NCBI GenBank assembly: GCA_035651995.1
Contig: DASRER010000038.1
Coordinates: 1 to 64,000 of the forward strand
Length of the DNA: 64,000 nucleotides
From: Terriglobales bacterium
GTDB taxonomy: Bacteria > Acidobacteriota > Terriglobia > Terriglobales > Acidobacteriaceae
Reading direction: 5' to 3'
The notes below the pieces were generated by a model. That model ran no database searches. It worked only from the letters and a program-made list of their open reading frames with translations, and had not been told where the DNA came from. Positions 1 through 60,717 of this stretch are shown piece by piece; the stretch's first letter is position 1, and every line of letters begins with the position of its first letter. A program made the translations under genes and the position numbers.

Positions 1-186
1 GTGGGCGTGAGCAAGCACACGCTGTACTCCTGGAAGGCGAAGTACGGCGGGATGGACGCGACGCAGGCGCAGGAGGCCAAGCAGTTGCGCGACGAGAACA
101 ACCGGCTGCGCAAGCTGGTGGCGGACCTGTCGCTGGACAAGGAAGCGTTGCAGTCGGTGATCCGAAAAAACGGCTGGAGCTCGTAG
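1..186 (+). CDS. IS3-family transposase OrfA, 3' part (N-terminus cut by window edge)
   Basis: The visible 61 residues are the second half of an IS3 OrfA. They comprise the end of the helix-turn-helix (VSKHTLYSWKAKYGGMD) and a leucine-zipper-like coiled coil (LRDENNRLRKLVADLSLDKEAL). A full OrfA is usually near 90 aa, so the GTG at base 1 is probably an internal valine rather than the start. Bases 165-171 read A-AAA-AAC in the orfA frame, a canonical -1 slippery heptamer. Shifting there runs in frame into orfB, giving the OrfAB transposase expected of this family. The TAG stop shares its last base with the GTG of orfB. Confidence 0.85.
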   Translation: MGVSKHTLYSWKAKYGGMDATQAQEAKQLRDENNRLRKLVADLSLDKEALQSVIRKNGWSS

Positions 187-45072: not shown

Positions 45073-45516
45073 ATGAGCAGCCCGGCACCAGACTTCAACC
45101 TCGACCAGGCGCGCTTTCCGGCGCAGCGTGAATTCGCCCTGGCCGCCGACCCGGAAGCCGTCGGCGCCGCCGTGGACGCCATGATGGCGTTCATGGACGC
45201 CTCCGGAATCTCGCTTCAGAAGCAGGCCGAGATCGCACTGGCGGTCACCGAAGCCGTGGTCAATGCTGTCGTGCACGGCTCAGGGGCCGATCGCGGCAAG
45301 ACCGTGCGCTGCATCGTAGGCTGCGACGCCTCGGGCGGCGTGCTCATCGCCGTGCGCGACTCCGGCCCCGGCTACGACCCCGCCAGCATCGCCGATCCGC
45401 TTTCCCGCGAAGGCTTGCAGCGCGACCACGGTCGCGGCCTTCACCTCATCCGCCAGCTCATGGACGAGGTCACCTTCGCGCACAACGGCGCTGAAATAAG
45501 GATGTGGAAGAAGTAA
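45073..45516 (+). CDS. RsbW/SpoIIAB-like anti-sigma serine kinase (HATPase)
   Basis: 147 aa. A small GHKL ATPase: N box in LAVTEAVVNAVVHGSG, G1 box in VRDSGPGYDP, and G2 box in DHGRGLHLIRQLMDEV. There is no sensor part, as in RsbW-type anti-sigma factors that phosphorylate STAS antagonists. A STAS protein gene lies only 11 bases beyond its end on the opposite strand, so the pair could form a partner-switch module. No matching sigma factor gene is in the window. Confidence 0.88.
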   Translation: MSSPAPDFNLDQARFPAQREFALAADPEAVGAAVDAMMAFMDASGISLQKQAEIALAVTEAVVNAVVHGSGADRGKTVRCIVGCDASGGVLIAVRDSGPGYDPASIADPLSREGLQRDHGRGLHLIRQLMDEVTFAHNGAEIRMWKK

Positions 45517-45527
45517 GGGAAGCCGCT

Positions 45528-45893
45528 TCAGCTCGACGCCGCCTGCGCCCCGCTCGGCCCGAACGACTGCACGGCAGCGGCGTCGTTGTTGTGGATCTCG
45601 AACACCGTCACCAGGCCCACCAGCTTCAGCGTCTGCAGAACGAACTTGCTCGGACTCACCAGCTTCACCGCCCCGCCGTGCTGCTTGGCCGATGTCTGCG
45701 ACTTCACCAGCACGCCGATGCCGCTGGAATCGAGCATGGGCACATCCGCCAGGTTCACCACGATCTGCGGATGTCCCTCCCGCAGCAGCCCGTCAATGGC
45801 GGCGCGAAATTCGTCCACCGCCTGGCCGAGGCGAAACTGCCCCCGCAATTTGATCACGTGCACTGCGGAATGCTTGCGAACGTCAATGTCCAA
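45528..45893 (-). CDS. STAS-domain anti-anti-sigma factor
   Basis: 121 aa from a TTG start at 45893 with GGAGGGG upstream. A single STAS domain (VHVIKLRGQFRLGQAVDEFRAAI, IVVNLADVPMLDSSGIGVLVKSQTSAKQHGGAVKLV). The phosphorylatable Ser is in the canonical MLDSSGIG loop (about 56-57). It is the expected substrate of an RsbW-type kinase, one of which is encoded convergently next door. It is divergent from the GAF/HlyD operon and shares its 158-base control region. Confidence 0.9.
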   Translation of the reverse strand: MDIDVRKHSAVHVIKLRGQFRLGQAVDEFRAAIDGLLREGHPQIVVNLADVPMLDSSGIGVLVKSQTSAKQHGGAVKLVSPSKFVLQTLKLVGLVTVFEIHNNDAAAVQSFGPSGAQAASS

Positions 45894-46051: not shown

Positions 46052-48463
46052 ATGGCGGCGCACACACCTGGGCTGGCGGGCTTGACGCGCGATATCGCCA
46101 TCTCCCTGCTGGCCGAACGCGAGGTCATGCCGCGCGCGCAGATCATCGCCGCGCGCGTTGCCGAACTCATCCCCGGCTCCGCCGTCGTGCTGTACCTGCT
46201 CGAGGGCAAACAACAACCCGCCTGGGCGCACAAGGCTGTGGTCGGCGACGTCACTCTGCACCGCAAGGGCTCGATTCCCCGCAACGCCGGCGCCCTCGGC
46301 CAGGCCTGCGCCCGGCGCGCGTCGCTGGTCCTCTCCGGCTCTTCCACGCCGCGCGAAAGCTACGCACACCTCGACGTGCGCCGCACCGTGGTCTCGCTCG
46401 GCTATGCCCCCATTCGCCACCACGGCGACGTGGTCGGCATGATCGAGGTGCTCACCTTCGACCGCCCGCTCGATGCCACGGTGCTCCACGAGCTCGATCC
46501 GCTGCTCGACTACGCCGCCGTCGCGCTCACCAGCGCCGTCGGCTACGAGGACGAGCGCAACGGCCAGTTCGCCACCATCAACCGCCTCACCCAGCTCTAC
46601 GACCTTGAGCGCTCGTTCAACTCCACCCTGCAAATGGACCAGCTGCTGCCCATCATCACCTCCAAGATCGCCGAAGTGCTCGAGGTCGAGGCCGTCAACC
46701 TCTGGATGGAGGAGGAAGAAGAGGGCGGCCTGCTGCTGGTCAAGCAGCACGGCGGCGACACCACCGTCCAAGAGGGCATGCACCTGCCCAAGGGCGAAGG
46801 TATCGCCGGTGAGGTTTCCGACAGCGGCAAGGGCGTGATCATCTTCAATCCCTCCGACGAGCGCCTGGTCAGGAGAAACGGCGGCGCCGAGCCGCCGCCC
46901 GTCCGCACCCTCATCGCCGTTCCCGTGCTCTCGCAGAACTACCAGGTTGGCGTGCTCGAAGCCATCAACCGGCTCGACGGCCGCTCATTCAACGACGACG
47001 ACGGCTTCTATCTCGGCACCATCGCCATCACCGCCGGCAGCGCGCTGCACAACGCCAGCCTGCTCGAAGCCGAGCGCAAGATCGAAGTGCTGGAAACCCT
47101 GGTCGAAGTCAGCCGCGAGATCACCTCCACGCTCAACCTCGATCGCGTGCTCCAGGTAGTGGTCAACGCCCCGCAGCGCATCATGGCCTACGACCGCGCC
47201 GCCATCGCCATCGAGCAGAGCGGCAAGCTGCAGCTCAAGGCGATCTCCGGCAAGACCGAAGTTGTCGCCAGCGACCCCCAGGTCAGGCGCCTGCGCGACA
47301 TCGTCGAATGGGCCGCCGACGCCGGCAACGAACTCTTCGTCGCCCAGCACGGCAACCAGGTCGCCGCCGATCGCCAGGAGACTGTCGCCAAGTTCCAGGA
47401 GTATTTCGCCGCCTCCGGCAGCCGCGCCTTCTACGCCGTGCCGCTGCGCGATGACCAGGGCCTGCTCGGCATCCTGACCTTCGAGAGCCGCAACCCCAAC
47501 TTCCTCTCCGACGCCCACTTCGAGTTCATCAAGGTGCTCGCCGGCCAGGCCACGGTGGCGGTGCGCAACGCCTCGCTCTACACCGAGGTGCCCTTCATCG
47601 GCGTCCTCGAGCCGCTCATCCAGAAGAAACAGGCGTTCATGCGCATGGAAAAGAAGCGGCGCACCGCGCTGGCCATTGCCGCCGCCGCGCTGGTCCTTTT
47701 CCTCGCCGTATGCCCGTTGCCCATGCGCGTGGAAGGCGAAGCCGTCGTCGCGCCGCTCGATACCGCCCGCATCCAGGCCGAAGTCGAAGGCGTCGTGCGC
47801 AACGTCTACGTGAAAGAAGGCGACCGCGTCGCCGCCGGCGCCGTCCTTGCCGACATGGAGGACTGGGACTACCGCGGCGCCCTGGCCGGCGCCGAAGCCA
47901 AGTACGCCACCGCCGTCGCCGCCATGAACCAGGCCCTCGCCGCCAACGACGGCGGCGAAGCCGGCGTGCAGCGCGTGCAGGCCGAGTTCTGGCAGTCGGA
48001 GGTGGAGCGCGCTCGCGCCCGCCTTGAGCACACAAAGCTCCGCTCCCCGATCAATGGCATCGTCGCTACCGCACGCGTCGAAGAACTCGCCGGCCACAAG
48101 CTCGAGGTCGGCGACCTGTTCGCGCAAGTGGTGGACTCTTCCCGCGCCAGCGTGGACGTGACCGTTGATCAGCAGGACCTGCCGCTGCTCCGCTCCGGCG
48201 AAGAACTGGCGCTGAAGCTGGAAAGCTTCCCCACGCGCAAATTTCACGGACGCGTCACCGTCGTCAGCCCCGCCGGCACGCCGCAGGGCGACCATCGCGT
48301 GTTTTACGCCCGCGCCGAGGTCCCCAATCCCGACGGCGCCCTGCGCCCAGGCATGCAGGGCATGGGCAAGGTTTGGACGGGCTGGCGCCCGGCAGGCTAC
48401 GTCTTCTTCCGCACGCCCGCCGCGTGGCTGTGGTCCAAGATCTGGTCGTGGGTAGGCTGGTAA
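46052..48463 (+). CDS. Triple-GAF sensor fused to an HlyD-type membrane fusion domain
   Basis: 803 aa with an unusual order. Residues ~10-165, ~185-345 and ~365-515 are three GAF-like domains; the second is the most typical (LYDLERSFNSTLQMDQLLPIITSKIAEVLEVEAVNLWMEEEEEGG, GEGIAGEVSDSGKGVIIFN). One helix at ~537-556 crosses the inner membrane. Residues ~560-785 are an HlyD-type barrel-sandwich with a short hairpin (VEGVVRNVYVKEGDRVAAGAVLADME, then HTKLRSPINGIVATARVEELAGHKLEVGDLFAQVVD). A cytoplasmic sensor is thus joined to a periplasmic adaptor. It heads a three-gene operon with a second adaptor and the PqqD/M50/HlyD protein. No kinase or cyclase domain is present. Confidence 0.88.
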   Translation: MAAHTPGLAGLTRDIAISLLAEREVMPRAQIIAARVAELIPGSAVVLYLLEGKQQPAWAHKAVVGDVTLHRKGSIPRNAGALGQACARRASLVLSGSSTPRESYAHLDVRRTVVSLGYAPIRHHGDVVGMIEVLTFDRPLDATVLHELDPLLDYAAVALTSAVGYEDERNGQFATINRLTQLYDLERSFNSTLQMDQLLPIITSKIAEVLEVEAVNLWMEEEEEGGLLLVKQHGGDTTVQEGMHLPKGEGIAGEVSDSGKGVIIFNPSDERLVRRNGGAEPPPVRTLIAVPVLSQNYQVGVLEAINRLDGRSFNDDDGFYLGTIAITAGSALHNASLLEAERKIEVLETLVEVSREITSTLNLDRVLQVVVNAPQRIMAYDRAAIAIEQSGKLQLKAISGKTEVVASDPQVRRLRDIVEWAADAGNELFVAQHGNQVAADRQETVAKFQEYFAASGSRAFYAVPLRDDQGLLGILTFESRNPNFLSDAHFEFIKVLAGQATVAVRNASLYTEVPFIGVLEPLIQKKQAFMRMEKKRRTALAIAAAALVLFLAVCPLPMRVEGEAVVAPLDTARIQAEVEGVVRNVYVKEGDRVAAGAVLADMEDWDYRGALAGAEAKYATAVAAMNQALAANDGGEAGVQRVQAEFWQSEVERARARLEHTKLRSPINGIVATARVEELAGHKLEVGDLFAQVVDSSRASVDVTVDQQDLPLLRSGEELALKLESFPTRKFHGRVTVVSPAGTPQGDHRVFYARAEVPNPDGALRPGMQGMGKVWTGWRPAGYVFFRTPAAWLWSKIWSWVGW

Positions 48464-48493: not shown

Positions 48494-49381
48494 GTGCGTA
48501 GCACGATCTTGAATGCACTCATCGCCTCGGCGTTGATGCTGGCCCTGTGCGGGTGCAGCGATTCGCGCCCGGCGGAAGCCGCCGCGGCCGCGCCGCTCTC
48601 CACCACGGCCGCCTCGAAACCGGCTGATTCCGCACTGTTCGAGGCCTCCGGCCCCATCGTGGTCGAGAACCAGCTCGACGTCCTCGCCCAGCGCGACGGC
48701 GTTGTGGCGCATATCGCGGCTGACACCGGCGCCCGCGTCAGCAAAGGTCAGCTTCTCGCCCAGCTCGACGACCGCCAGCTCCAGGCCGACAAGGAAGCCG
48801 CCGAGGCCAAGGTCGCCAGCATGGAGCAAAACCTCAAGGACTTCGAAGCCGAGACCCGCGTCCTGGAAAACGACCTCAACATCGCGCAACAGATGTACGA
48901 CGCCGGCCTGCAGACGCGCCAGCAGCTCGACCATGCTCGCTACAAGCTCGAAGGCCAGCGGTTCCAGACCAGGCGCGAGGCGGAAATCATCCGCGAGAAC
49001 CGCGCCATGCTGCGCTCCCTCACCCTCGAACTGGAGAAGACGCGCATCCTCGCGCCCTTCGACGGCGTCGTGGCCCGCCGCTACATCCGCGAAGGCCAGC
49101 GCGTGGCCAACAACGACCGCATGTTCTGGGTGACGGCCACCGGGCCGCTGAGTGTGAAGTTCACCCTGCCGCAGGAGTTCGCAGGCAAGGTCGCGGTGGC
49201 CGATCCGGTCACCGTCACCGCCCCCGCTTCCACCGCGGAATACGCCGCCCGGATCACGCGCGTGAGCCCGGTCGTAGACCCGGCCAGCGGCAGCATCGAA
49301 GTGCAGGCGCAGCTCACCGGCGCCGCCGCCGGCCTGCTGCCCGGCATGACCGCCAGCGTGCGCGTCAGGAAGGCCAAATGA
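48494..49381 (+). CDS. Periplasmic adaptor (membrane fusion) lipoprotein
   Basis: 295 aa from GTG 48494, with CAGGAGG six bases upstream. The signal peptide ends in a lipobox (LALCGC). The adaptor fold is complete: DVLAQRDGVVAHIAADTGARVSKGQLLAQLDDRQLQADKEA (lipoyl half), a coiled-coil hairpin at ~105-185, TRILAPFDGVVARRYIREGQRVANNDRMFWVTA (second half), and a beta-barrel ending in SVRVRKAK. RND and ABC pump adaptors look like this, but no pump subunit or outer-membrane channel is in the operon. Its stop overlaps the start of the M50 gene (ATGA). Confidence 0.9.
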   Translation: MRSTILNALIASALMLALCGCSDSRPAEAAAAAPLSTTAASKPADSALFEASGPIVVENQLDVLAQRDGVVAHIAADTGARVSKGQLLAQLDDRQLQADKEAAEAKVASMEQNLKDFEAETRVLENDLNIAQQMYDAGLQTRQQLDHARYKLEGQRFQTRREAEIIRENRAMLRSLTLELEKTRILAPFDGVVARRYIREGQRVANNDRMFWVTATGPLSVKFTLPQEFAGKVAVADPVTVTAPASTAEYAARITRVSPVVDPASGSIEVQAQLTGAAAGLLPGMTASVRVRKAK

Positions 49382-51525
49382 ACATCGCCGAGGCGCTGAA
49401 GGAGGCGCTGCCGGAAACTCCTTCAGCACGCGCCCTGGAGACGTTCCCGCGCGTGCACCCCAACCTCGTGGTCCGCGAGCACATGGAGCGCGAGGGCAAG
49501 ATGTACCACACCGCCGTCCCCGGCACGACCCTCCTGTTCCGCCTCACGCCGCAGCAGTATCAGCTCGCCCTGCTCTTCGACGGCAAGCGTTCCTACGCGC
49601 AGGTGGCCGCCGCCTTCCGCCAGAAAACGGGCATCCATACCGACGAAGCCACCGTCCGCCGCTTCGCCGACAATCTCGACAAGGGCGACTTCTGGTACCG
49701 CACGCCGCAGGAAGAAAGCATCATCCTCTACCAGAAGCTCCAGCAGCACCGCCATTCGCGCGTCACCAAGCGCCGCCTCGTCGGCGATCTATCCAGCATC
49801 CACATCGTTTACTTCGATCCCGACCGCTATCTGACCTGGCTGCACAGCAAGTTTTGGTGGGTCTACACCGGTTGGTTCGCGCTGTCCGGCGCTGTGATGT
49901 TTGTCGTCATGTGCATCATCCTGGGCTCGCGCTGGAGCGAGGTCTGGAACGACAGCGTCCTCTTCTACAACTTCACTAACAAAAACGCTTGGGACATCGT
50001 TGAGTTCTTCGTCATCTTCATCCTCCTCGCCGTCCTTCATGAGAGCGCGCACGGAATGACGTGCAAACACTTCGGCGGCGAGTCGCACAAGATGGGCATG
50101 TTCCTCGTCTACCTGCTGCCCGCCATGTTCTGCGACACCTCGCAGGTGTGGGTCTATGGCGGACGCTGGGCGCGCATCCTCACCGTCGCCTCGGGCGTGC
50201 TCTCGGAAATCTACCTCTGCTCCATCATCAGCGTCGTCTGGTGGTTCACCACGCCCGGAACCTGGATCCACGAAATTGCCTATAAGTTCATCCTGAGCGG
50301 CGGCATCTTCGTCGTGCTCGTGAATTGGAACCCGCTCACCAAGCTCGACGGCTACTACCTGCTCTGCGAGATTTGCCGCTTCTTCGACCTGCGCGGCCAG
50401 GCCAATGCCCTGCTTTCGGCCACGCTGCGCAAGTACGTGTTCCGCATGCCCGCCACGGTCCCGCCCATGCCGCTCCCTCGCCGCCTGGGTCTGCTCTCCT
50501 ATGCCGTCGTCTCCGGCGCTTATTGTTACTTTGTCCTCCTGTTCTTCGTGCGGCTCACCTACAAGATCACCTATCACTTTTCCCCGGAATGGGCCTTCAT
50601 CCCGGCGCTGCTGCTGGCGCTTCGTATCTTCCGCTCACGTATTCAGAAACTCACCCAGTTCGTGCGCGCTCTTTACCTCGATAAGAAGGAATTTATGGGT
50701 ATTCACTGGCGCAAATTCGCCGCCGCCGCCGCCCTGCTGGCGCTGTTTGGCCTGCTCCCCGTCTGGCGCGATTCATTCAAGGGCCGCTTCCTCCTCCAGC
50801 CCGCTGCCCGCGCCGTGCTCCGCGCCCAGGTCGCTGGCACGGTTGCCGGCGTCTTCGCCGCCGAGGGCGACCACGTGCGTGCCGGCGACCTTCTGGGACG
50901 GCTGCGCAATCTCGATGTGGAAACATCCGCCGCTCGCGCTCAAGCTGACTACCGCGTTGCCGTCGCTCGCGCCACCCAGGCTCAGCTGCGCTACACCGCG
51001 TTCGCCGCCGCCGACCAGCAGCGCCGCCGCATGGAACAAGCGCTCCGCCTCGCCGACGATCAGCGCCGGCGCTTGAGCATCGCCTCGCCCATTTCCGGCA
51101 CCGTGGTCACCCCCCGGCTGTCCGACCTCCGCGGCTCTTACCTCACGGAAGGTACGCCCTTTGCCGAGGTGGAAGACACATCGTCTCTGCGCGCCGAGAT
51201 CTACGTTCCGGAAACTGAGATTTACCGCTTTCGCGACATCCGCCGCATCGGTCTCCACATCGACGGTTTCGTGGGCCGCGTCCCGGCCGTCAGCATTTCC
51301 GTCTCGCCGGCCGCGCGCGAAATGGAACCTGGCCTTGAGCCTCCCGTGAAGTATCAGGGAATGCGGCCACCGGCCATGTACGTCCTCACCGCCACCGTGT
51401 ACAACGCCGACGGCCGTCTTTCACCGGGGATGGCGGGAACCGCCAGGGTCTTCGGCCCTCGCCGCAGCCTGGCCGGGTTGCTGTTGGAACCTCTCGTCCA
51501 CGCCATCGCCCGCCGCATCTGGTAG
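49378..51525 (+). CDS. PqqD-like / M50 zinc protease / HlyD-domain membrane protein
   Basis: 715 aa. Residues ~27-110 form a PqqD-like winged-helix (VPGTTLLFRLTPQQYQLALLFDGKRSYAQVAAAFRQKTG); PqqD domains often bind leader peptides of ribosomal natural products. Residues ~155-450 are a polytopic M50 (site-2 protease) domain with the zinc motif HESAH (221-225) and the third-ligand motif NWNPLTKLDGYYLL (Asp 324). Residues ~465-700 are a periplasmic HlyD-like barrel-sandwich (RAQVAGTVAGVFAAEGDHVRAGDLLGRLRNLDVETS). All catalytic residues are present. The combination suggests recognition, membrane cleavage and/or export of a peptide. Convergent to it, 73 bases away, lies a small repeat-peptide gene, the obvious candidate substrate (inference). 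Confidence 0.9.
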   Translation: MNIAEALKEALPETPSARALETFPRVHPNLVVREHMEREGKMYHTAVPGTTLLFRLTPQQYQLALLFDGKRSYAQVAAAFRQKTGIHTDEATVRRFADNLDKGDFWYRTPQEESIILYQKLQQHRHSRVTKRRLVGDLSSIHIVYFDPDRYLTWLHSKFWWVYTGWFALSGAVMFVVMCIILGSRWSEVWNDSVLFYNFTNKNAWDIVEFFVIFILLAVLHESAHGMTCKHFGGESHKMGMFLVYLLPAMFCDTSQVWVYGGRWARILTVASGVLSEIYLCSIISVVWWFTTPGTWIHEIAYKFILSGGIFVVLVNWNPLTKLDGYYLLCEICRFFDLRGQANALLSATLRKYVFRMPATVPPMPLPRRLGLLSYAVVSGAYCYFVLLFFVRLTYKITYHFSPEWAFIPALLLALRIFRSRIQKLTQFVRALYLDKKEFMGIHWRKFAAAAALLALFGLLPVWRDSFKGRFLLQPAARAVLRAQVAGTVAGVFAAEGDHVRAGDLLGRLRNLDVETSAARAQADYRVAVARATQAQLRYTAFAAADQQRRRMEQALRLADDQRRRLSIASPISGTVVTPRLSDLRGSYLTEGTPFAEVEDTSSLRAEIYVPETEIYRFRDIRRIGLHIDGFVGRVPAVSISVSPAAREMEPGLEPPVKYQGMRPPAMYVLTATVYNADGRLSPGMAGTARVFGPRRSLAGLLLEPLVHAIARRIW

Positions 51526-51598: not shown

Positions 51599-51877
51599 CT
51601 ACTTCATGCTGACGGCGCTGTCAACGCCCGTGCCGCTGGCGCTGTCCAGACCGGCGCCGCTGGCGCTGTCCAGACCCGTGCCGCTGGCGCTGTCCAGGCC
51701 CGTGCCGCTGGCCGAATCCAGACCCATGCCGCTGGCACTATCAATCCCAGCGCCGCTCGCAGATTCGATCGAGACCGATTCCGGGGTCACGCTGCCGAAC
51801 TCACGGCCGCCGGTACGCGATGCCAGAATGGCCTTCTTCGCAGCCGCGCGGCTCTTAATGAGTGACTTCTTCTCCAT
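51599..51877 (-). CDS. Small repeat peptide, candidate substrate of the M50/PqqD exporter
   Basis: 92 aa from ATG 51877, preceded by GAGG; an earlier in-frame ATG near 51922 precedes the predicted transcription start. Residues 1-22 are basic and amphipathic (KKSLIKSRAAAKK..). Residues 23-24 are Gly-Gly, reminiscent of leader cleavage sites. From 38 to 85 there are six octapeptide repeats of the form [D/E]SASGxG[ILV], ending DSAVSMK. There is no signal peptide, cysteine or hydrophobic helix. The region is rich in Ser, Gly, Ala and Asp. It has its own sigma-54-like promoter and terminator, and lies between the M50 gene and the sigma-54 activator gene. I know no family for it. Modified, processed or secreted peptide is the leading guess. 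Confidence 0.7.
   Translation of the reverse strand: MEKKSLIKSRAAAKKAILASRTGGREFGSVTPESVSIESASGAGIDSASGMGLDSASGTGLDSASGTGLDSASGAGLDSASGTGVDSAVSMK
51623..51766 (-). repeat. Six tandem 24-bp coding repeats
   Basis: Each 24-base unit encodes one DSASGxGL octapeptide. Units differ at a few bases, mostly at the variable position (Ala, Met, Thr) and at the Ile/Leu/Val position. Copy number is likely to vary between strains by slippage or recombination. Confidence 0.9.
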
Positions 51878-51922: not shown

Positions 51923-51938
51923 TGCATTCGCCGCACCA
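51923..51938 (-). promoter_or_regulatory. Candidate sigma-54 promoter of the repeat-peptide gene
   Basis: The minus strand reads TGGTGCG-GCGA-ATGCA: GG at 51937-51936 and GC at 51925-51924 with exactly 10 bases between, as in the -24/-12 class. Transcription would start near 51912, 35 bases before ATG 51877. A sigma-54 activator is encoded immediately upstream. The -24 GG overlaps an imperfect 20-bp palindrome at 51936-51955 (CCAAAGTAC-CT-GTACCTTGG arms). Confidence 0.55.
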
Positions 51939-52080: not shown

Positions 52081-53496
52081 TTAACCTTCGCCATCGAGGT
52101 CGGCGCGATATTTTCGGCAGAGATACTTCATCCGCTGCTGGTTCAGGCGAAGCAGCGCCGCCGCTACCGTTTTCTTGCCGCCAGCCCGGCGCAGGGCAGC
52201 CCGCAGGTAGGCCGCCTCGATCTTCTCCATCTCTTTATCGAAGTCGATGCCCTCGGCAGGGATCAGGAGCGCTTCGTGCTTGGTGGTGCTGCTGTACAGG
52301 ATCTGCTGCGGCAGGTGGTGCACCGCGATTGTCTTGCCCTCCACCATCAGCACCAGCCGCTGAATCAGGTTTTGCAGCTCGCGCACGTTCCCCGGCCAGG
52401 TATTCTCCTCCAGGACTTCCAGCGCCTCCAGATCCAGCCGCTTCAGCGGCACGTGGTTGGCGGCGCAATACAGTCGGAGGAAGTGGTCGGTGAGCAGCGC
52501 AATGTCGCCCTCGCGCTCCCGCAGCGGCGGTATCAGGATCGGCACCACGTGAATCCGGTAATAGAGGTCGCTGCGGAAGCGGCCTTCCTTCACCATCTGC
52601 TCCAGGTTCTCGTGGGTCGCGGTCAGCAGGCGGAAATCGATCTTGCGTGACGAGTTGCCGCCCAGCCGCTGCACCGCCCGGTCTTCCAGCACCCGCAGCA
52701 GCTTGCTCTGCAGCCCCAGCGACAGCGTGGCGATCTCGTCGAGAAAGAGCGTGCCGCCGTCGGCCAGCTCGATCTGCCCGGCACGCGAAGTGACGGCGCC
52801 GGTAAACGCGCCCTTCTCGTGTCCGAACAGCTCCGCTTCGATCAGATGCTCGGGCAAGGCCGCGCAATTCAGGCTGATGAACGGTTTGTCGCGCCGCGGA
52901 CCCAGCGACACGATGCTGCGCGCCACCAGCTCCTTGCCGGTCCCGCTCTCGCCGCGGATCACCACCGACGTATCGCTCTGCGCCACCCGCAGGATGGCGC
53001 TGTACACGTTGCGCATGGCTTCGCTGGCGCCGATCAGCTCGCAGAACGAGTAGCCGCCCCCCAGCGGATCGGCGGCTCGCCACGCTTCCGCCTGCGCCGA
53101 GCGCCGCTCCAGCGCGGCCGTCAGCGCCGGCTTCAGCTCCGACATTTCCAGCGGCGCGCCCAGCACCTCGTCGGCGCCCGCCTGCGTCAGCCGGACGCGC
53201 GTCTCCGGTGTCTGCGTGCGCGTCAGCGCCAGGATGGCGAAATGCGGATAACGCCGCCGTAGCACCTCCAGCGACACCAGCGCCGAATCCAGCGGCTGGT
53301 CGCGCAGCTCCGCGTCGAGCACGATGCCGGCCACCGGCATGCGCGCCGTCAGCACCTCAACGCCGCTCGGCGAATCCACGTGCAGCACCTGAAAGTCACC
53401 CTCCAAGAGCGACTGCACGCCGGCCACGATCCCAGCGTCGGCGCACACCACCGCAACGTTGCGGGATTCGGAAACACGCGCGCCGGGTGATGCCAT
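52081..53496 (-). CDS. Sigma-54-dependent transcriptional activator (NtrC family) with degenerate receiver
   Basis: 471 aa. The N-terminal ~130 residues have a receiver fold with Asp 61 (AGIVLDAEL) in the acceptor position. The acidic pocket is reduced (CADAG), and the conserved Lys is replaced (VLGAPLEM), so normal phosphorylation is doubtful. The AAA+ domain is complete: Walker A GESGTGKE (182-189), sigma-54 contact loop GAFTGA (229-234), Walker B TLFLDE (about 249-254), arginine finger region [11 protein letters not shown]. The C-terminus is a Fis-type HTH ([31 protein letters not shown]). It is transcribed toward the repeat-peptide gene, whose promoter region holds a matching dyad and a GG-N10-GC element. 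Confidence 0.94.
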
Positions 53497-53646: not shown

Positions 53647-56600
53647 CTACTGACCGCGGAAGGTCACGTCGAAATACACGCGTGCCTCGCCGCTTGCGCC
53701 TGATGTGTCACCCGGCTGCACCGGTCCGGTACCGCCGCCGAGCTGGCGAATCAGCTGGCCGGCGCCGTTGCGCGTGAACACCGTCCGCGAACGCGCGTCG
53801 AGCTGCCGCGGATTGCGGATGGCGCGCAATGTCAGCATGCCCACGTGGCCGTTGTTCAGCCGGACGGCGTAGGTGTGTCCCGCCAGGCCCGTCGCGCTCG
53901 TGCTGAACGGCGCCAACGACGCGTTCGCCGCCGCCGCGTCCTGGTTGAAGCCCAGGTCGGCAATGCCGTTCTGCGATTGCAGACGGTAGTTGCCCGCCCC
54001 TAGGTCAACCACGCTGAACTCCACATCGGCGTTGTCGCAACCGCCGCTCGCGCCCGACGACAGCCGCAGGCCCGTGCAACCCGACTCGCTCACTTCCACC
54101 ACCAGCCTCTGCTCCGGCCCCGCGGCCGCCAGTTCATCCGCCAATGCGCCGCTTTCGTCCGGACGCAGCACGAAATGCGGAACCGTCACCGACTTGACCC
54201 CGCTGGTCTGCTGCGTGAGCGTGCGCTCGGGATCGATCACCACCGCCAGGTTGAGCGCGAGGCCGGGCGAGACGGCCCCTCCCGCCGCGGCCCCAGCGTC
54301 GGTGGCGCTCCCCGCGCCCGAAGCCGGGAAGCGCTGCCCGCGCCGGCCGCGCGACCCGCCCACCCGCGCGTTGCTCCACTCCAGCGCACCCAGCGTGCCG
54401 CCGCCCGCGGCCACGTCAAACGTGTCGCTGGCCACGGTCACCCCGTTCACCTGCAACGCGACCGGCACTTTGTGCGCCGCGCCGGTGCCCTTGTTTGTGA
54501 TCCGGAAGCGCACCGCCACCGTGTCCCCGGCGCGCGGCAGCGACGGGCTGAATGACACGTCCGCGGCGCTGATGCTCAAATCGGGCAGCCCGCCCCCGCT
54601 TCCTCGCTTTGCGCCCTGGCGGCGCGCCGCGCTCCCGCTGGCCCCGCGGCTCCACGACCCGCGTTTCGCCGTGGCAACGCCCGGCGCCGTGCCCCCCCCA
54701 CAAAGTCCGCCGGCTGCCGACATATCAACCGCCAGGTCGAGGAACGTGGCGGTCACCGTGTCGTTGCCATTGGTCACCGTCACGTCGAAGAACACGCTCT
54801 GCAGGTCGAGCGGCGCATTGGCGGCCGTGGCTGAACTGTTGAACTGGAATGTGGGCAGGGCCGTGTACCCGTTCCCGGTAAACGTGCTGCTTCCGGTGGG
54901 GATGTTCACGCTCAGCCCGCCCCCCGCAAACGGAAACTCGTTGGTCTCCCACGCCCAGTTGACGGTCGGAATGTTGAAGCCGTTGTCGGCGATGAAATTC
55001 ACCGCCAGCGAACCGCTGCCGCCGGGCGGCACGCGCACGCACGCGCCCCCGTTGTTCAGCAGCAAATCGCCGATACGGTAGTACAGTGTCCCAACCGGTT
55101 GCACCACTCCCGTCTGCGGGTTGTCGCGCGCCGAAGACACCGAGAACGCCTCCGCCGAGACGGTGCTCGTCGGATTGCCTTCCACCACAAACCCGTCCAG
55201 GTCCAGCGTGGCCTGGGCCTGCGCCCCGGCGGGCGTTCTCCAAGCCACTCCCTTGATCTGCTGCGGACTGGTGATGATCTGGTCCTGGTCCACGAAGGTC
55301 ATATCGAGCGTACCGGGACACGGCGGCGGCGGCCCGATCGACCCGATGCAGCTCGTCCGCGTCGCCGTCACGCTGAACGGCTCGCGCAGGAACCCGTTGA
55401 TCTGCAGCGGACTCTCGATCGAGTTGTGGCCGGTGTTCGTGTTGATGGAGATGCTGTCGGTGAACGCCGGCAGCACGATCGTGTTGATGAAGATGGTCGC
55501 CCCGCGCTTGGCGTCCCGCGTCGTCACCAGGTTCGAGTCCGTCAGGAAGGTAGGCGCGGGCAACGTCGCCACCACCTGCGCGTAGTACAGCGCGTCCGGC
55601 GTCAACGCGTCCTCATGCACCGTCACCGTACCGCTGAAGTTGTTGCCGGCGTTCAGTTGCGCCGGGAACGTGGGCACGGTGATGTGGGTACTGGTCAGGC
55701 TTACGCTGATCGGCAATGGGACCGTCAAGGACCCGCTGCCCCCCACCAGCCGCGCCTTGATGGTCGTGTTGGCGTTGATGACCGCCGGCGGTGTGAACGG
55801 TATTGGGTTTGCGCTCGACTCGCCCGGCGAACCCGGCTGCACCACCAGTTCCCAGTTCGACGCCGTGACGTTCAGCGTCGCGAAGTTGTCCACCAGGTTG
55901 GTTTCGCCCTGGGCCGAGACGACGAACAGATGGACCTGCACGGCGTTGCTCATGGTGGGATCGTCCGGCATCCACACGTCCATGGTCACGTTCGTTGAGG
56001 CGCCTGCGGCCAGAGACGAACTGAGTTCCTTGAACCCAACCAGCCTGCCTCCTATGCTCGCCCCGATCTCAATCGGATTCAGGCTCGGCCCGGTGCCGTG
56101 GTTGTTCACCGTGAGGCCAATCTGGAACGTCTCCCCGAACAGGATCGGGTTGGTCGTGGTGTTGCGCCCCGTCGTCGTGCCGCCCAGCGCCACATTCTGC
56201 AAAGCGAAGTCCGGCGTGCCGCTGGCCGCATTCACGTTCACCGGTATGGTAATGGAATCGTCGGCGGTGGACTGCGTGATGGACGTGGTCAGGCTGATGG
56301 TGGCCGTGTACGGGCCCGGCGGCACCTGCGATGTCAGCGCCGAGGGTATGGTGAAAAACGCGTTCGCGGTTTGCCCCGCCGCCGGCGCCGGCACCGACGT
56401 CTGGAACGGCGGATTGCACGCGCCGATGCACGCGATCGAGACCACGATGAACCCGGTCGGGCTGAGACTGCCGATGTTCTTGACCGGCACCGTGATGTTC
56501 AGGCTTTCGCCCACCGTCAGTGAGTTCGGGCCGGTGAAGGGCGCAGGCCCGTGCCCGGCGATCTGCATCGTCAGCGGCACGTAGTTGGCCTGCGGCGGCG

Positions 56601-59600
56601 CGTTGGTCACGATGATCGTGGCGTTGAAGTTCACGTTGCCGGCCGGCACATTGCTGGTGGGAATTCCGCCGTCGGTGGCGTGCACAACCGCCGTCAGATT
56701 GCCCAGCGCCAGCCCCGTCGCTGCCTGCACGTTCCAGGTCACATTTCCGGGCGTGTTCAAGACTTGCGTGAGCGGATTGGGCGTGCTGATGCCGCCCGGC
56801 AATGTGATCGAGAGTTGAAGCGGAAAGATGCCGCCGCTCACGCTCACTGTCAGGGCCTGCGTCGGACCACCGGCTTGGACCGCCACCGGACTGCTGTTCA
56901 TCGCGATCTCGCTCAGCACCTGGAACACAATCGGCTGGTTGGCGGCGTGCGTCACACCGCCCACCGTTCCCGTGATGTTGGCCGTGAACGGCCCCGGCCC
57001 GCTCGACACCGTCCCACCCAGCGTCGTGCCGTTGGCGCCGCTGGCCGCCAGCCCCGACGGCGCGCCCGTGTAGCTCACGGTCACCGTCAGCGGATAACTC
57101 GCCGGATTGATCTGCACCGCAGGCACGCTGGCCGCCCGGCCGTTGATGAGCTGCACCGTCGAGGTGGGCAGCGTTGTCAGCGTGAAGTCCACTAGTCGGA
57201 TGCTGGTCGTCAGAGTGTTGTTCGCGGTGTTGGTTTCCTGCACTGCGTTGTTGGTGTTCACGTCAACCTGCAGCGAGCCCGTGATGTCAGCCGGCGCCGC
57301 CGCCAGCTGTGGCACGTTTACGTTGACCGTTGCCAGGGCGCTGCCGCCCGCCGGAACATTCGGTCCCGTCCCCGATCCCACCGGGCTCCCGTTGATCCTG
57401 AGCACCACGTCGTAGCCCGCCGGCGCATCGTCGAGCCCGGTATTGTTCACGCGGATCGTGATCGTGCCCGCCCCGCCCATCTGCCCGATGATCTGCGTGG
57501 CCGGCGCCGGCACCGTCAGGTCGATGTTCCCGTTCGTCTGCGCGGCCAGCGTCAGCGAGTTGTTCCCCAGCGCGCCCGAGCTTTCCAGCGGGTCCTTGTT
57601 GATCGTGCAGCTCAGCGTGTTCGCGCCCGCGAAATTGGTGGGGACCACGAAATTGAAGGTGATCGTTCCGCCGGTCGTGTTCGGCTGCACGACCGGAATC
57701 GTGTTCGACCCCAGGCTCCGCGTTCCCAGGGGCCCGGTCAGGGAGCACGCGAACGTGTCAGCTGCGTTCGAGGGCACGTTCCCCGTGTTGTGGACCTGGA
57801 ACGTCACCCCGCGGTTCTGACCCGCCAGGAACGGCGGACCGCCGGCGGCCGTGAAGGCCAGGTTCACCATCGAGAGGTCGATCTGCGCCGCCGTCAGCGT
57901 GAGGCTGGCGGTCAGCGTGTCGTTGGCGGCGTTGTTGTCGAATTGCGCCGCCGGAGTGATGCGCACCTGGAAGTTGTGCGTTCCCGAACCGTTCGGCCAG
58001 ATCACCGGAATCGGCGCCACCACCGACTGGCCCGAAGGGATCGCCGGTATGCCGGCGCTGAATTGGAACCCGGGGAAGTCAGCGCTCGTCACCACCAGGT
58101 TGTTGCTCGAGGGCGACGATCCCGTGCTGCCAAGGTTCCGGATCGTGACGTTCACCACGCCCGCTAGCGTCCCGATCAGGTTCGTCGCCGTGAAGCTCTG
58201 CACCGCCAGGTCAACGTTGCCGATCACCACCGGCACCACGTCGGTGCTCGTGGTTCCGCAGCTCGCCGTCTGCACCACGCATCCCGGATTGCCGATTCCG
58301 ACCAGCTGCCCGGGCGTGCCCGGCGTCAGGTTCGGCACGGTGATGCGTCCGCTCACCTGCACGCTTTGTCCAGGCGCGAGCGGCGGCGCAACATCCACGT
58401 CGGTCCCGCCAATCTCTGTGCCGGCGCTGTCGGTAAGAGACAATCGCACCTTGACGGTCTGCGTCAGCGGCGCTTTGCCCACATTCGTCACCGTCGCCGT
58501 CACCTGCACGCTGCCGGTCGGGATCGGCGTGGGATCGTTGCTTGTTGTCGCCGGGCCGCGGCTCGCCTGCGCGCGCGCTCCTTTCACCGGCACTGCCCCG
58601 CTCACCGACGTCACATTCGTGATCTGCACTTCAATGTCCGGCAGCGCGGCGTCGCTGGTCTGCGGTCCGGGCGGCAGGCCCTGCACCGTGCCGTTGTCGC
58701 CCTGGAAGTCCACAATGCGCCAGCCGTCGCCCGATTCCCGCGACATCCGTACCGAAAGCTGTTCCACCTGGTGGTAGACCAGGTTGGGATTGTTCTGGAA
58801 CGAGTAGTTTTGCTCCCAGTCGGCGCGCACCGTGGCGTCGTTGCAGTTCACCTGCGCCTGCGAGATGCGCAGGTTGATGTTCATCGAGGCCAGCGTCTGG
58901 AACGTGCGCCGCACGTTCTCCTGCAGCTGCGTGTAGCCGGAGAACTGCGTCGCGTCGAAGTACCCGAGGAAGCGCGAAGACTGCAGGGCCACGTACGCGT
59001 CAGCCAGGTTGCGCAGCGTGGTCGGCGGATCGTCGTACGCCGTGGGCAGCACGTGCAGCGTCGTATCCGTGGTGTTCTTGTTGCCCGAAGCGTCCGTCGT
59101 CACCAGGCGCACGCGGTAGTCGCCCGGCTGCAGCGAGCAGGTCACCGCCGTGAAGTCCGGCGCGCTCGAGGTAAAGCCCGGCAGCGGATTGCACGATCCG
59201 CTCGCCGCGCACAGCGACCACTCATAGCTGGTGATGTTCGCGCCGCCGCCACTGGGCGCCGTGTATCGGAAGCTGTTCCCCACTTCCACCGACTGCTCGC
59301 CCAGCGCCCCGCCGCCCGCCGGGCTGCCGCGCAACTGGTCGAGCCAGTTCTGCGTGATCTGCGCAATGTTGCCGCTGGCATTGTTCGCGGCCCCGCCCAA
59401 CCCTTCCCCGGCCGCTCGCAGCGCGCCCTGCAGCGTGCCGTTCACCTCGTTGAAAGCGCCGGCCAGGGCTTGGTTGAATGCCTCATCGGGCGCGCGCCCG
59501 TTGAGCGCCTGCTGCGCCGCGTCGAAGCGCGCCTTCAAGTCCGACTGCGCCGTGCCCGCCGCCTGCTCGATCGCCGAGCGCGCCCGCTCGGCCGCCGAGC

Positions 59601-60717
59601 GCACCGCGTCCACCTGCGCCTGCAGGTCGGAGTCGGCGCGGCTCACGTCGCGGTTCTGCTTGTTGGCGCTGTCAATTTCCGATTTCGATTGCGCTGCCTG
59701 GTTGGCAATCTGGTCGGCCACGCCGCCCAGCGCTGTCAGCGCCGACGTTCGCTCCTGCTCGATCAGGTCTTCGTAGCCCTTGCGCAAGGCCGCAGCGTCC
59801 CCGGTCGGCGCACCCTGGATGTTGATGACCGCCACCACGTCAGCGCCCTTGGAGCGGCTGAACGTGATCGTGCGCGGGCCCGGCGCCGCATTCGCATCCG
59901 CCGCGATGTGTACGTTCACCGCCGTGTTCGTGCCGCCCGGATTCAATCTCGCCTGCACGCCGCCGCCGGCAACCGTGACTTTGTTCACGCCGCCCAGGTT
60001 CGAACCCGTCGCGACCGCGTCCACCGCCGTGCCCACCAGCAGCGCTCCCGGCGCCAGCGCGCTTAGCACGCCCGCGGCGGTTTCCTGCAACGCCTCCTGC
60101 ATCTCCTGCGGGGTGGCTTTGCGCTTCGACGGCGCCTTGCCGCCCGGCACGCTCACGAAGTCGCCCGCGCCGCAATGCTCTTCCCCGCCCACGCTCGGAT
60201 CGGCGTTGCCGATCTTCGTATCGCCGTCAAAGCAGACGAAGTCGGTGTTCGACGCCGACGCGTTCGACGAAAAATGCGTTCCGATGACGCCGGCAACCGC
60301 CGTCGGCGTGCGCAACTGGAAGCTGCCGCCGTCGCGCGTGATCTTGGTGACCTCGGCCCGCATTCGCCCGTACGTCAGCGCCAGCGACGTCTGCTGCGAG
60401 CGCGCATCGTGCTGCACGATGCGCAGTTCGGCCTGCGACCCGACCGAGAGAATCGATTCATCCAGCAACTGGATGCGCGCCCGTCCGCCCTTCTCCGTGC
60501 GCACCAGGTCCTGCCATACCAGTTCCGAGCCCTTCTTGGCGTCCGTCGACGTCTGTGCCTTGCCGCTGCCGCGCACAATGTGCGCCACCGGGAGCAGCGC
60601 CGTGATGCTGCCCGCCTTCGTGTTCACCGTGGGCTTAGGGGGCGGAGCGGCTTCCAGTGGCTGGACTGCCGCCAACAACACGCCCAGAAGGCAACCGACG
60701 ACCGGACGACGATTCAT
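53647..60717 (-). CDS. Giant FecR-domain / CARDB-repeat secreted surface protein (2356 aa)
   Basis: A signal peptide (VVGCLLGVLLAAVQPLEA) precedes a FecR domain (~45-185, GSELVWQDLVRTEKGGRARIQLLDESILSVGSQAELRI, SFQLRTPTAVAGVIGTHF). A coiled-coil Ala/Gln-rich segment follows at ~310-460. A PKD-like beta domain comes next (~475-560, EVGNSFRYTAPSGGGANITSYEWSLC). The remainder is a long array of beta-sandwiches, several of them CARDB-like (DLAVQSFTATNLIGTLAGVVNVTIRNLGSTG, QTVKVRLSLTDSAGTEIGGTDVDVAPPLAPGQSV). No sortase, PEP-CTERM or type 9 signal is seen at the C-terminus. A FecR domain normally contacts an anti-sigma or surface partner; here it is fused to an adhesin-like stalk. The single frame is intact over 7 kb. 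Confidence 0.88.
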   Translation of the reverse strand: MNRRPVVGCLLGVLLAAVQPLEAAPPPKPTVNTKAGSITALLPVAHIVRGSGKAQTSTDAKKGSELVWQDLVRTEKGGRARIQLLDESILSVGSQAELRIVQHDARSQQTSLALTYGRMRAEVTKITRDGGSFQLRTPTAVAGVIGTHFSSNASASNTDFVCFDGDTKIGNADPSVGGEEHCGAGDFVSVPGGKAPSKRKATPQEMQEALQETAAGVLSALAPGALLVGTAVDAVATGSNLGGVNKVTVAGGGVQARLNPGGTNTAVNVHIAADANAAPGPRTITFSRSKGADVVAVINIQGAPTGDAAALRKGYEDLIEQERTSALTALGGVADQIANQAAQSKSEIDSANKQNRDVSRADSDLQAQVDAVRSAAERARSAIEQAAGTAQSDLKARFDAAQQALNGRAPDEAFNQALAGAFNEVNGTLQGALRAAGEGLGGAANNASGNIAQITQNWLDQLRGSPAGGGALGEQSVEVGNSFRYTAPSGGGANITSYEWSLCAASGSCNPLPGFTSSAPDFTAVTCSLQPGDYRVRLVTTDASGNKNTTDTTLHVLPTAYDDPPTTLRNLADAYVALQSSRFLGYFDATQFSGYTQLQENVRRTFQTLASMNINLRISQAQVNCNDATVRADWEQNYSFQNNPNLVYHQVEQLSVRMSRESGDGWRIVDFQGDNGTVQGLPPGPQTSDAALPDIEVQITNVTSVSGAVPVKGARAQASRGPATTSNDPTPIPTGSVQVTATVTNVGKAPLTQTVKVRLSLTDSAGTEIGGTDVDVAPPLAPGQSVQVSGRITVPNLTPGTPGQLVGIGNPGCVVQTASCGTTSTDVVPVVIGNVDLAVQSFTATNLIGTLAGVVNVTIRNLGSTGSSPSSNNLVVTSADFPGFQFSAGIPAIPSGQSVVAPIPVIWPNGSGTHNFQVRITPAAQFDNNAANDTLTASLTLTAAQIDLSMVNLAFTAAGGPPFLAGQNRGVTFQVHNTGNVPSNAADTFACSLTGPLGTRSLGSNTIPVVQPNTTGGTITFNFVVPTNFAGANTLSCTINKDPLESSGALGNNSLTLAAQTNGNIDLTVPAPATQIIGQMGGAGTITIRVNNTGLDDAPAGYDVVLRINGSPVGSGTGPNVPAGGSALATVNVNVPQLAAAPADITGSLQVDVNTNNAVQETNTANNTLTTSIRLVDFTLTTLPTSTVQLINGRAASVPAVQINPASYPLTVTVSYTGAPSGLAASGANGTTLGGTVSSGPGPFTANITGTVGGVTHAANQPIVFQVLSEIAMNSSPVAVQAGGPTQALTVSVSGGIFPLQLSITLPGGISTPNPLTQVLNTPGNVTWNVQAATGLALGNLTAVVHATDGGIPTSNVPAGNVNFNATIIVTNAPPQANYVPLTMQIAGHGPAPFTGPNSLTVGESLNITVPVKNIGSLSPTGFIVVSIACIGACNPPFQTSVPAPAAGQTANAFFTIPSALTSQVPPGPYTATISLTTSITQSTADDSITIPVNVNAASGTPDFALQNVALGGTTTGRNTTTNPILFGETFQIGLTVNNHGTGPSLNPIEIGASIGGRLVGFKELSSSLAAGASTNVTMDVWMPDDPTMSNAVQVHLFVVSAQGETNLVDNFATLNVTASNWELVVQPGSPGESSANPIPFTPPAVINANTTIKARLVGGSGSLTVPLPISVSLTSTHITVPTFPAQLNAGNNFSGTVTVHEDALTPDALYYAQVVATLPAPTFLTDSNLVTTRDAKRGATIFINTIVLPAFTDSISINTNTGHNSIESPLQINGFLREPFSVTATRTSCIGSIGPPPPCPGTLDMTFVDQDQIITSPQQIKGVAWRTPAGAQAQATLDLDGFVVEGNPTSTVSAEAFSVSSARDNPQTGVVQPVGTLYYRIGDLLLNNGGACVRVPPGGSGSLAVNFIADNGFNIPTVNWAWETNEFPFAGGGLSVNIPTGSSTFTGNGYTALPTFQFNSSATAANAPLDLQSVFFDVTVTNGNDTVTATFLDLAVDMSAAGGLCGGGTAPGVATAKRGSWSRGASGSAARRQGAKRGSGGGLPDLSISAADVSFSPSLPRAGDTVAVRFRITNKGTGAAHKVPVALQVNGVTVASDTFDVAAGGGTLGALEWSNARVGGSRGRRGQRFPASGAGSATDAGAAAGGAVSPGLALNLAVVIDPERTLTQQTSGVKSVTVPHFVLRPDESGALADELAAAGPEQRLVVEVSESGCTGLRLSSGASGGCDNADVEFSVVDLGAGNYRLQSQNGIADLGFNQDAAAANASLAPFSTSATGLAGHTYAVRLNNGHVGMLTLRAIRNPRQLDARSRTVFTRNGAGQLIRQLGGGTGPVQPGDTSGASGEARVYFDVTFRGQ

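Follow-up and report, generated by a model that had tools for sequence, protein, structure and literature searches.

A gene for 92 residues at positions 51599-51877 (minus strand) of the window, i.e., the whole 64,000-nt stretch of Terriglobales DNA analyzed here, represents a bacterial family, apparently undescribed so far, whose members begin with the same segment and continue, in each species, with wholly different tandem repeats. The frame is real and coding, and a chance frame was excluded because both its position and its leader were conserved in relatives. The product is probably the dedicated substrate of a sigma-54-controlled, leader-guided pathway for the processing and export of species-specific repeat peptides. 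This proposal was built on the family itself, its fixed leader and changing repeats, its linkage to the gene of a RRE-M50-HlyD fusion protein, the RRE-like fold and the protease residues of that protein, and a promoter element. In a literature search, with subscription journals mostly outside its reach, no description of the leader, of the PqqD+M50+HlyD combination or of such repeat precursors was found.

Translation from the ATG at 51877 to the end of the stop codon at 51599 gave MEKKSLIKSRAAAKKAILASRTGGREFGSVTPESVSIESASGAGIDSASGMGLDSASGTGLDSASGTGLDSASGAGLDSASGTGVDSAVSMK, and a ribosome-binding-like GAGG was present 5′ of the ATG. Residues 38-85 (51623-51766, minus strand) consist of six octads of the form (D/E)SASGxG(L/I/V), and a degenerate partial seventh octad is also present. 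This stretch had the top Tandem Repeats Finder score in the window (169-176, every other row being at or below 76), and in this array alone the octad unit was weakly constrained (pN/pS 0.8). No match to the peptide was obtained in Pfam or NCBIfam, and a search for a second precursor in the same genome found none. When the sequence was re-read, the initial annotation proved exact in describing a frame of 92 residues with six octads and a Gly-Gly at residues 23-24 after a basic N-terminus, and the two-part, precursor-like layout that it proposed was borne out by the conserved leader and variable repeat region of the relatives. Its functional suggestions did not extend to them: the Gly-Gly, taken as a processing motif, was absent from the relatives (which have, e.g., SRSGIS, SRKGTA, STPVA or TTPVA), and the Asp/Ser spacing, thought to suit crosslinking, glycosylation or metal binding, finds no counterpart in units such as AIKP, LSGGKG, KLAPN and GPGGFQ, which share no such side chains.

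The first search for relatives returned weak matches. One of them, in genome G022, was placed immediately downstream of a homologue of the protease gene that flanks the window precursor, with the two genes converging; the product of this match reads MEKKSLITTRAAAKKALIASRSGIS, after which ADAGSMA is repeated about 18 times. A search across the phylum with the short leader was too insensitive (4/396), and therefore the relatives were searched with the fusion gene instead. It was present in 67 of the 348 genomes from the same family, and in 58 of the 59 loci with enough sequence a leader-plus-repeat gene was found downstream of it, in convergent orientation. In one of these (L063) the leader was divergent; a few had weak repeats, and L128 had none. 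Identical precursors occurred in two pairs of loci (L108/L109 and L113/L114), and the 46 distinct precursors were aligned gap-free for comparison. Two genomes hold two systems each, with different repeat units (G488, L098 on contig C42 and L142 on contig C9; G509, L104 on contig C98 and L116 on contig C68). Matches to the repeat region in relatives (E about 0.001-0.1) were mostly low-complexity parts of other frames, and were retained only if they lay beside a fusion gene. The sole tblastn match in named genomes, on an archaeal contig (L003), was discarded, as the matched stretch was split in two within a longer frame, which presumably encodes a thiolase-type enzyme. Three consecutive short Lys-rich frames were also observed next to a remote member of the system (L063, 7507-7656, 7831-7968 and 8108-8257), the first of which starts with a related MQKK and contains short repeats. 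Furthermore, short frames just 5′ of more distant RRE-M50-HlyD genes (L064, 7377-7538; L067, 6006-6140) share another motif, MEE.LVLEVEELE..APN..W, and are possibly precursors with a different leader.

The conserved leader corresponds to residues 1-19 of the window precursor (MEKKSLIKSRAAAKKAILA; 51821-51877, minus strand), and its consensus over the first ~18 residues was xKKSLIxxRxAxKKAIIA. Residues K3, K4, L6 and I7 were invariant in the 46 precursors, but they were included in the search motif; outside this motif, K14 and K15 were each found in 42 of the 46 sequences, A19 in 40 and A16 in 37. Over the 1035 pairs the mean identity of the leaders was 0.60 and the median 3-mer overlap of the cores was 0. 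The repeat units, with periods from 3 or 4 up to about 12, included ADAGSMA, NVASG, SRLAE, LSGGKG, LSGAKG, GGGLQG, GPGGFQ, RVTPHA, KAPAKLAA and SKGGAL, and also AIKP, RVQS, LTRGSAN, LSNSP, LSGGRGN, NTRA, AGTLR, KLAPN, KRLDSA and GHSPKVV. In genus g71, with fusion proteins 48-62% identical, three leaders were 100% identical and the core 3-mer overlap was 0.02 (units SRLAE, LTRGSAN and LSNSP); in genus g23 both leader and core were kept. The check suggested at the outset, namely whether the leader is conserved while the number of repeats varies, was strongly positive, but it had not foreseen that, beyond the number of repeats, the whole unit differs. The cores are composed mostly of Ala, Ser, Gly, Lys and Leu, with Cys and Tyr almost absent and no Trp. 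Most of them are basic; the window precursor and genus g23 have acidic cores, and some arrays, such as that of L100, are irregular.

When adjacent units within arrays were compared (pooled comparisons that are not mutually independent), pS was 0.55 and pN 0.16, a ratio of 0.29, and in the ADAGSMA array (G022, L049) pN was 0.03 versus a pS of 0.78. Neighboring units differ mainly at synonymous sites, which marks them as old and constrained at the protein level, not as recent copies. The in-array ratio was 0.29 for the sense frame versus 0.34 for the antisense frame that mirrors its codons, values that do not separate the two frames. The strand was decided by the counts of open frames and the conservation of the leader, both of which favored the sense frame: it was open in all 46 genes and the best antisense frame in 27 of them, and the leader pN/pS across species was lowest in the sense frame (0.37), rising to 0.42 in the codon-mirroring antisense frame and to at least 0.93 in the others. 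Hence, the opposite-strand frame, whose strong conservation had been named as grounds for rejecting the peptide, is not the conserved one in these 46 genes. Although overlapping open frames on both strands at this place would fit a frame open merely by chance or on the antisense strand of GC-rich DNA, this explanation is already refuted by the conservation across loci of the leader, the position, the promoter element and the open sense frame, and we give it practically no credence.

The plus-strand gene at 49378-51525 encodes the 715-residue RRE-M50-HlyD fusion, as recognized by Pfam and NCBIfam matches. The PqqD-like RRE (RiPP recognition element) domain covers residues about 22-110 (49441-49707), and its AlphaFold2 model (pLDDT 82) has three strands and then helices that form a winged-helix unit. 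Among its best structural matches with VIA-align were RREs of lasso-peptide pathways whose structures include a leader peptide, namely 6jx3_B (Z 9.6) and TbiB1 (5v1u and 5v1v, Z 9.0-9.1), and also PqqD (5sxy, Z 8.0), all of them over 79-85 residues. Foldseek alone gave an E of about 0.06 for TbiB1, and PqqD ranked first in a PDB profile search with an E of 0.06. The sequence scores for a RRE are weak, and therefore the fold carries the assignment: in its model the N-terminal domain is RRE-like, and it is predicted to bind the leader. In the middle part of the protein, the HExxH (H221, E222 and H225) and NP....DGYY (N318, P319 and D324) residues were invariant in 38 homologues, and the model of the whole fusion (pLDDT 82) has a helical core in this part. 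By these motifs the middle part can be classed as a M50 (site-2) protease, with predicted activity. The C-terminal part was modelled like the HlyD-type adaptors MexA and AcrA.

Upstream of the fusion gene lie two other adaptor genes that are conserved in the loci of the family: one for a HlyD-type adaptor with a lipobox-like N-terminus (48494-49381, plus strand; RND_mfp over the cut-off) and one for a GAF-domain protein fused to a HlyD-type adaptor (46052-48463, plus strand; domain matches). Divergent from the latter is a gene for a STAS anti-sigma-factor-antagonist (45528-45893, minus strand; TIGR00377 over the cut-off), a homologue of which, 37-66% identical, was found in 14 of the fetched loci, and the order STAS (divergent), GAF-HlyD, HlyD and fusion recurs across loci. 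Beside the STAS gene, at 45073-45516 on the plus strand of the window, is an RsbW-like anti-sigma kinase domain (HATPase_c_2); among the fetched loci, only L059 and L060 have retained a gene of this type close to the system. No ABC, RND or MFS pump, no TolC, no peptide-modifying enzyme and no receptor or immunity gene was conserved in the loci. At 39.9-44.4 kb of the window lie TolC and EmrAB-like genes, which were considered as partners and discarded, as they have no conserved counterpart in the loci of the relatives; likewise, the FecR/CARDB protein encoded beside the activator gene (2356 aa; 53647-60717, minus strand) was not conserved in the loci.

A -24/-12-like element of the sigma-54 type (consensus TGGCAC-N5-TTGCA), TGGTGCGGCGAATGCA, lies at 51923-51938 on the minus strand, 61 bp upstream of the ATG of the window precursor. 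A TGG-N10-GC element, in agreement with this consensus, was located 55-115 bp 5′ of the start in 42 of the 46 precursors, versus 0.49 expected from shuffled sequences, and it was observed neither in the upstream control window nor on the other strand (0 in each). The gene adjoining the precursor (52081-53496, minus strand) encodes a sigma-54-dependent activator whose N-terminus weakly resembles a receiver domain (Sigma54_activat, E=7e-69; Response_reg, E=4e-4) and is conserved at this place in the family loci; in addition, a sigma-54 gene was found in the genome. With such an element and an adjacent activator, the precursor is, as judged from the sequence, a predicted sigma-54-controlled gene.

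In the model that we favor, the peptide would be made from the sigma-54 promoter driven by the adjacent activator, and its KKSLI...KKAIIA leader would be bound by the RRE domain of the protein encoded at 49378-51525. The M50 part, in the inner membrane, would then cut the precursor, presumably near the end of the leader, and the fused HlyD adaptor together with the two other HlyD proteins would carry the released repeats through the envelope. Once outside, they would form an extended low-complexity polypeptide with a unit characteristic of each species, and its most likely location would be the cell surface or a matrix. From their composition (Ala, Ser, Gly, Lys and Leu, almost no Cys and no Trp) we would guess such a surface or matrix role: these are low-complexity cores that share no chemistry, and therefore a polymer of this type was favored, with a cut-up signal or toxin as a possibility.

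In that second case, the repeats would be cleaved into numerous short copies with a species-specific role as a signal or toxin between bacteria, as with tandem pheromone precursors, and rapid replacement of the unit would result from recognition or conflict. We consider this unlikely, yet it would account for the full replacement of the unit between species of the same genus with identical leaders while the unit is held within the array, and the conserved activator, the GAF sensor domains of the locus and the mostly cationic cores would fit it as well. However, a receptor or immunity gene was not conserved in the locus, no cut site was common to the unit junctions, the cores of two genera are acidic, and irregular arrays such as that of L100 would not be expected. 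Tandem-core precursors exist among RiPPs, and RRE-bound leaders usually serve modifying enzymes, so the family could also be one of multi-core modified peptides with tailoring enzymes encoded elsewhere in the genome. This is rather improbable, given that no modifying enzyme was conserved in the loci and that no residue type common to the units would allow a single chemistry, some of them being without Ser/Thr, some without Lys and some without acids. Even more doubtful is a peptide that stays in the cell as a regulator of the M50 protease or a decoy substrate for it, with the repeats as a neutral tail: M50 proteases are often related to signaling and STAS and sigma-54 proteins are encoded nearby, but the fused HlyD domain and the two additional HlyD genes point to export, and the purifying selection on the units argues against a neutral tail.

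If the leader-guided export model holds, the role of the RRE domain extends to the leader-guided export of repeat proteins, and a single fixed leader is compatible with almost any repeat, whether silk-like (GPGGFQ), proline-rich (AIKP) or acidic (ADAGSMA), which would open a route to the secretion of designed repeat polypeptides. The family also offers a natural series for asking why a unit is swapped whole between species and yet remains constant within an array. Because RiPP mining relies on finding a modifying enzyme together with a conserved core, loci such as these, which lack both, would easily escape it. A broader reading, which we put forward as possible rather than probable, is that the RRE-M50-HlyD machine represents a distinct class of secretion system that exports unmodified tandem-repeat polypeptides with a fixed leader and a unit replaced wholesale between species, in which case each species would have its own secreted repeat polymer.

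Compared with known systems, the one described here would work like the RRE/M50 peptide pathways, yet it lacks the features that define daptides and epipeptides. MpaP, a RRE-dependent intramembrane peptidase, has been described as removing the daptide leader (PMC10036551), and both systems have a RRE fused to a M50 protease beside a leader-plus-core precursor; the fusion matched the daptide protease model over residues 35-414 (E=1e-35), with a score of 123.6 versus a cut-off of 300. Unlike in daptides, however, the oxidative decarboxylase, aminotransferase and methyltransferase genes were not in the conserved neighborhood, a HlyD part is fused on, and the tandem-repeat cores have no common C-terminal Thr. 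In the epipeptide systems (EpeP/YydH/LiaK) the M50 protease EpeP is thought both to cleave and to export a ribosomal peptide (PMC10885120), but the fusion matched this model weakly (34.8 bits, cut-off 225), the radical SAM epimerase was not among the conserved genes, and the RRE and HlyD parts are additional. Double-glycine leader peptides have a conserved Gly-Gly and a C39 peptidase transporter, whereas here neither the Gly-Gly nor a transporter was conserved. The HlyD-type adaptors are shared with type I secretion (HlyD-TolC), but in place of a conserved ABC pump and RTX-like repeats there is an N-terminal leader and a RRE-protease. In LEPR-XLL systems, found on Alphaproteobacterial plasmids, a homologous fusion and HlyD genes are neighbors of a protein whose N-terminus carries a conserved motif; there the presumed substrates have thousands of residues and an EPR-LLSA motif, and a SecA-like or TolC gene is present, whereas here the substrates are short repeat peptides with a KKSLI leader, and the LEPR-xLL motif was absent from all precursors. 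In four such loci (L149 and L150, NZ_CP024200.1; L147 and L151, NZ_CP085155.1), PqqD-M50-HlyD genes lie beside giant proteins that start with EPRILLSA or EPRVLLSA, together with DUF3467 and HlyD genes, a TolC gene in L149 and a translocase gene in L147. The EPR-LLSA motif possibly serves as a leader recognized by the RRE domain, and the presence of relatives of the fusion gene beside these giants suggests, through a purely positional link, that export of leader-bearing surface proteins by this machine is more widespread.
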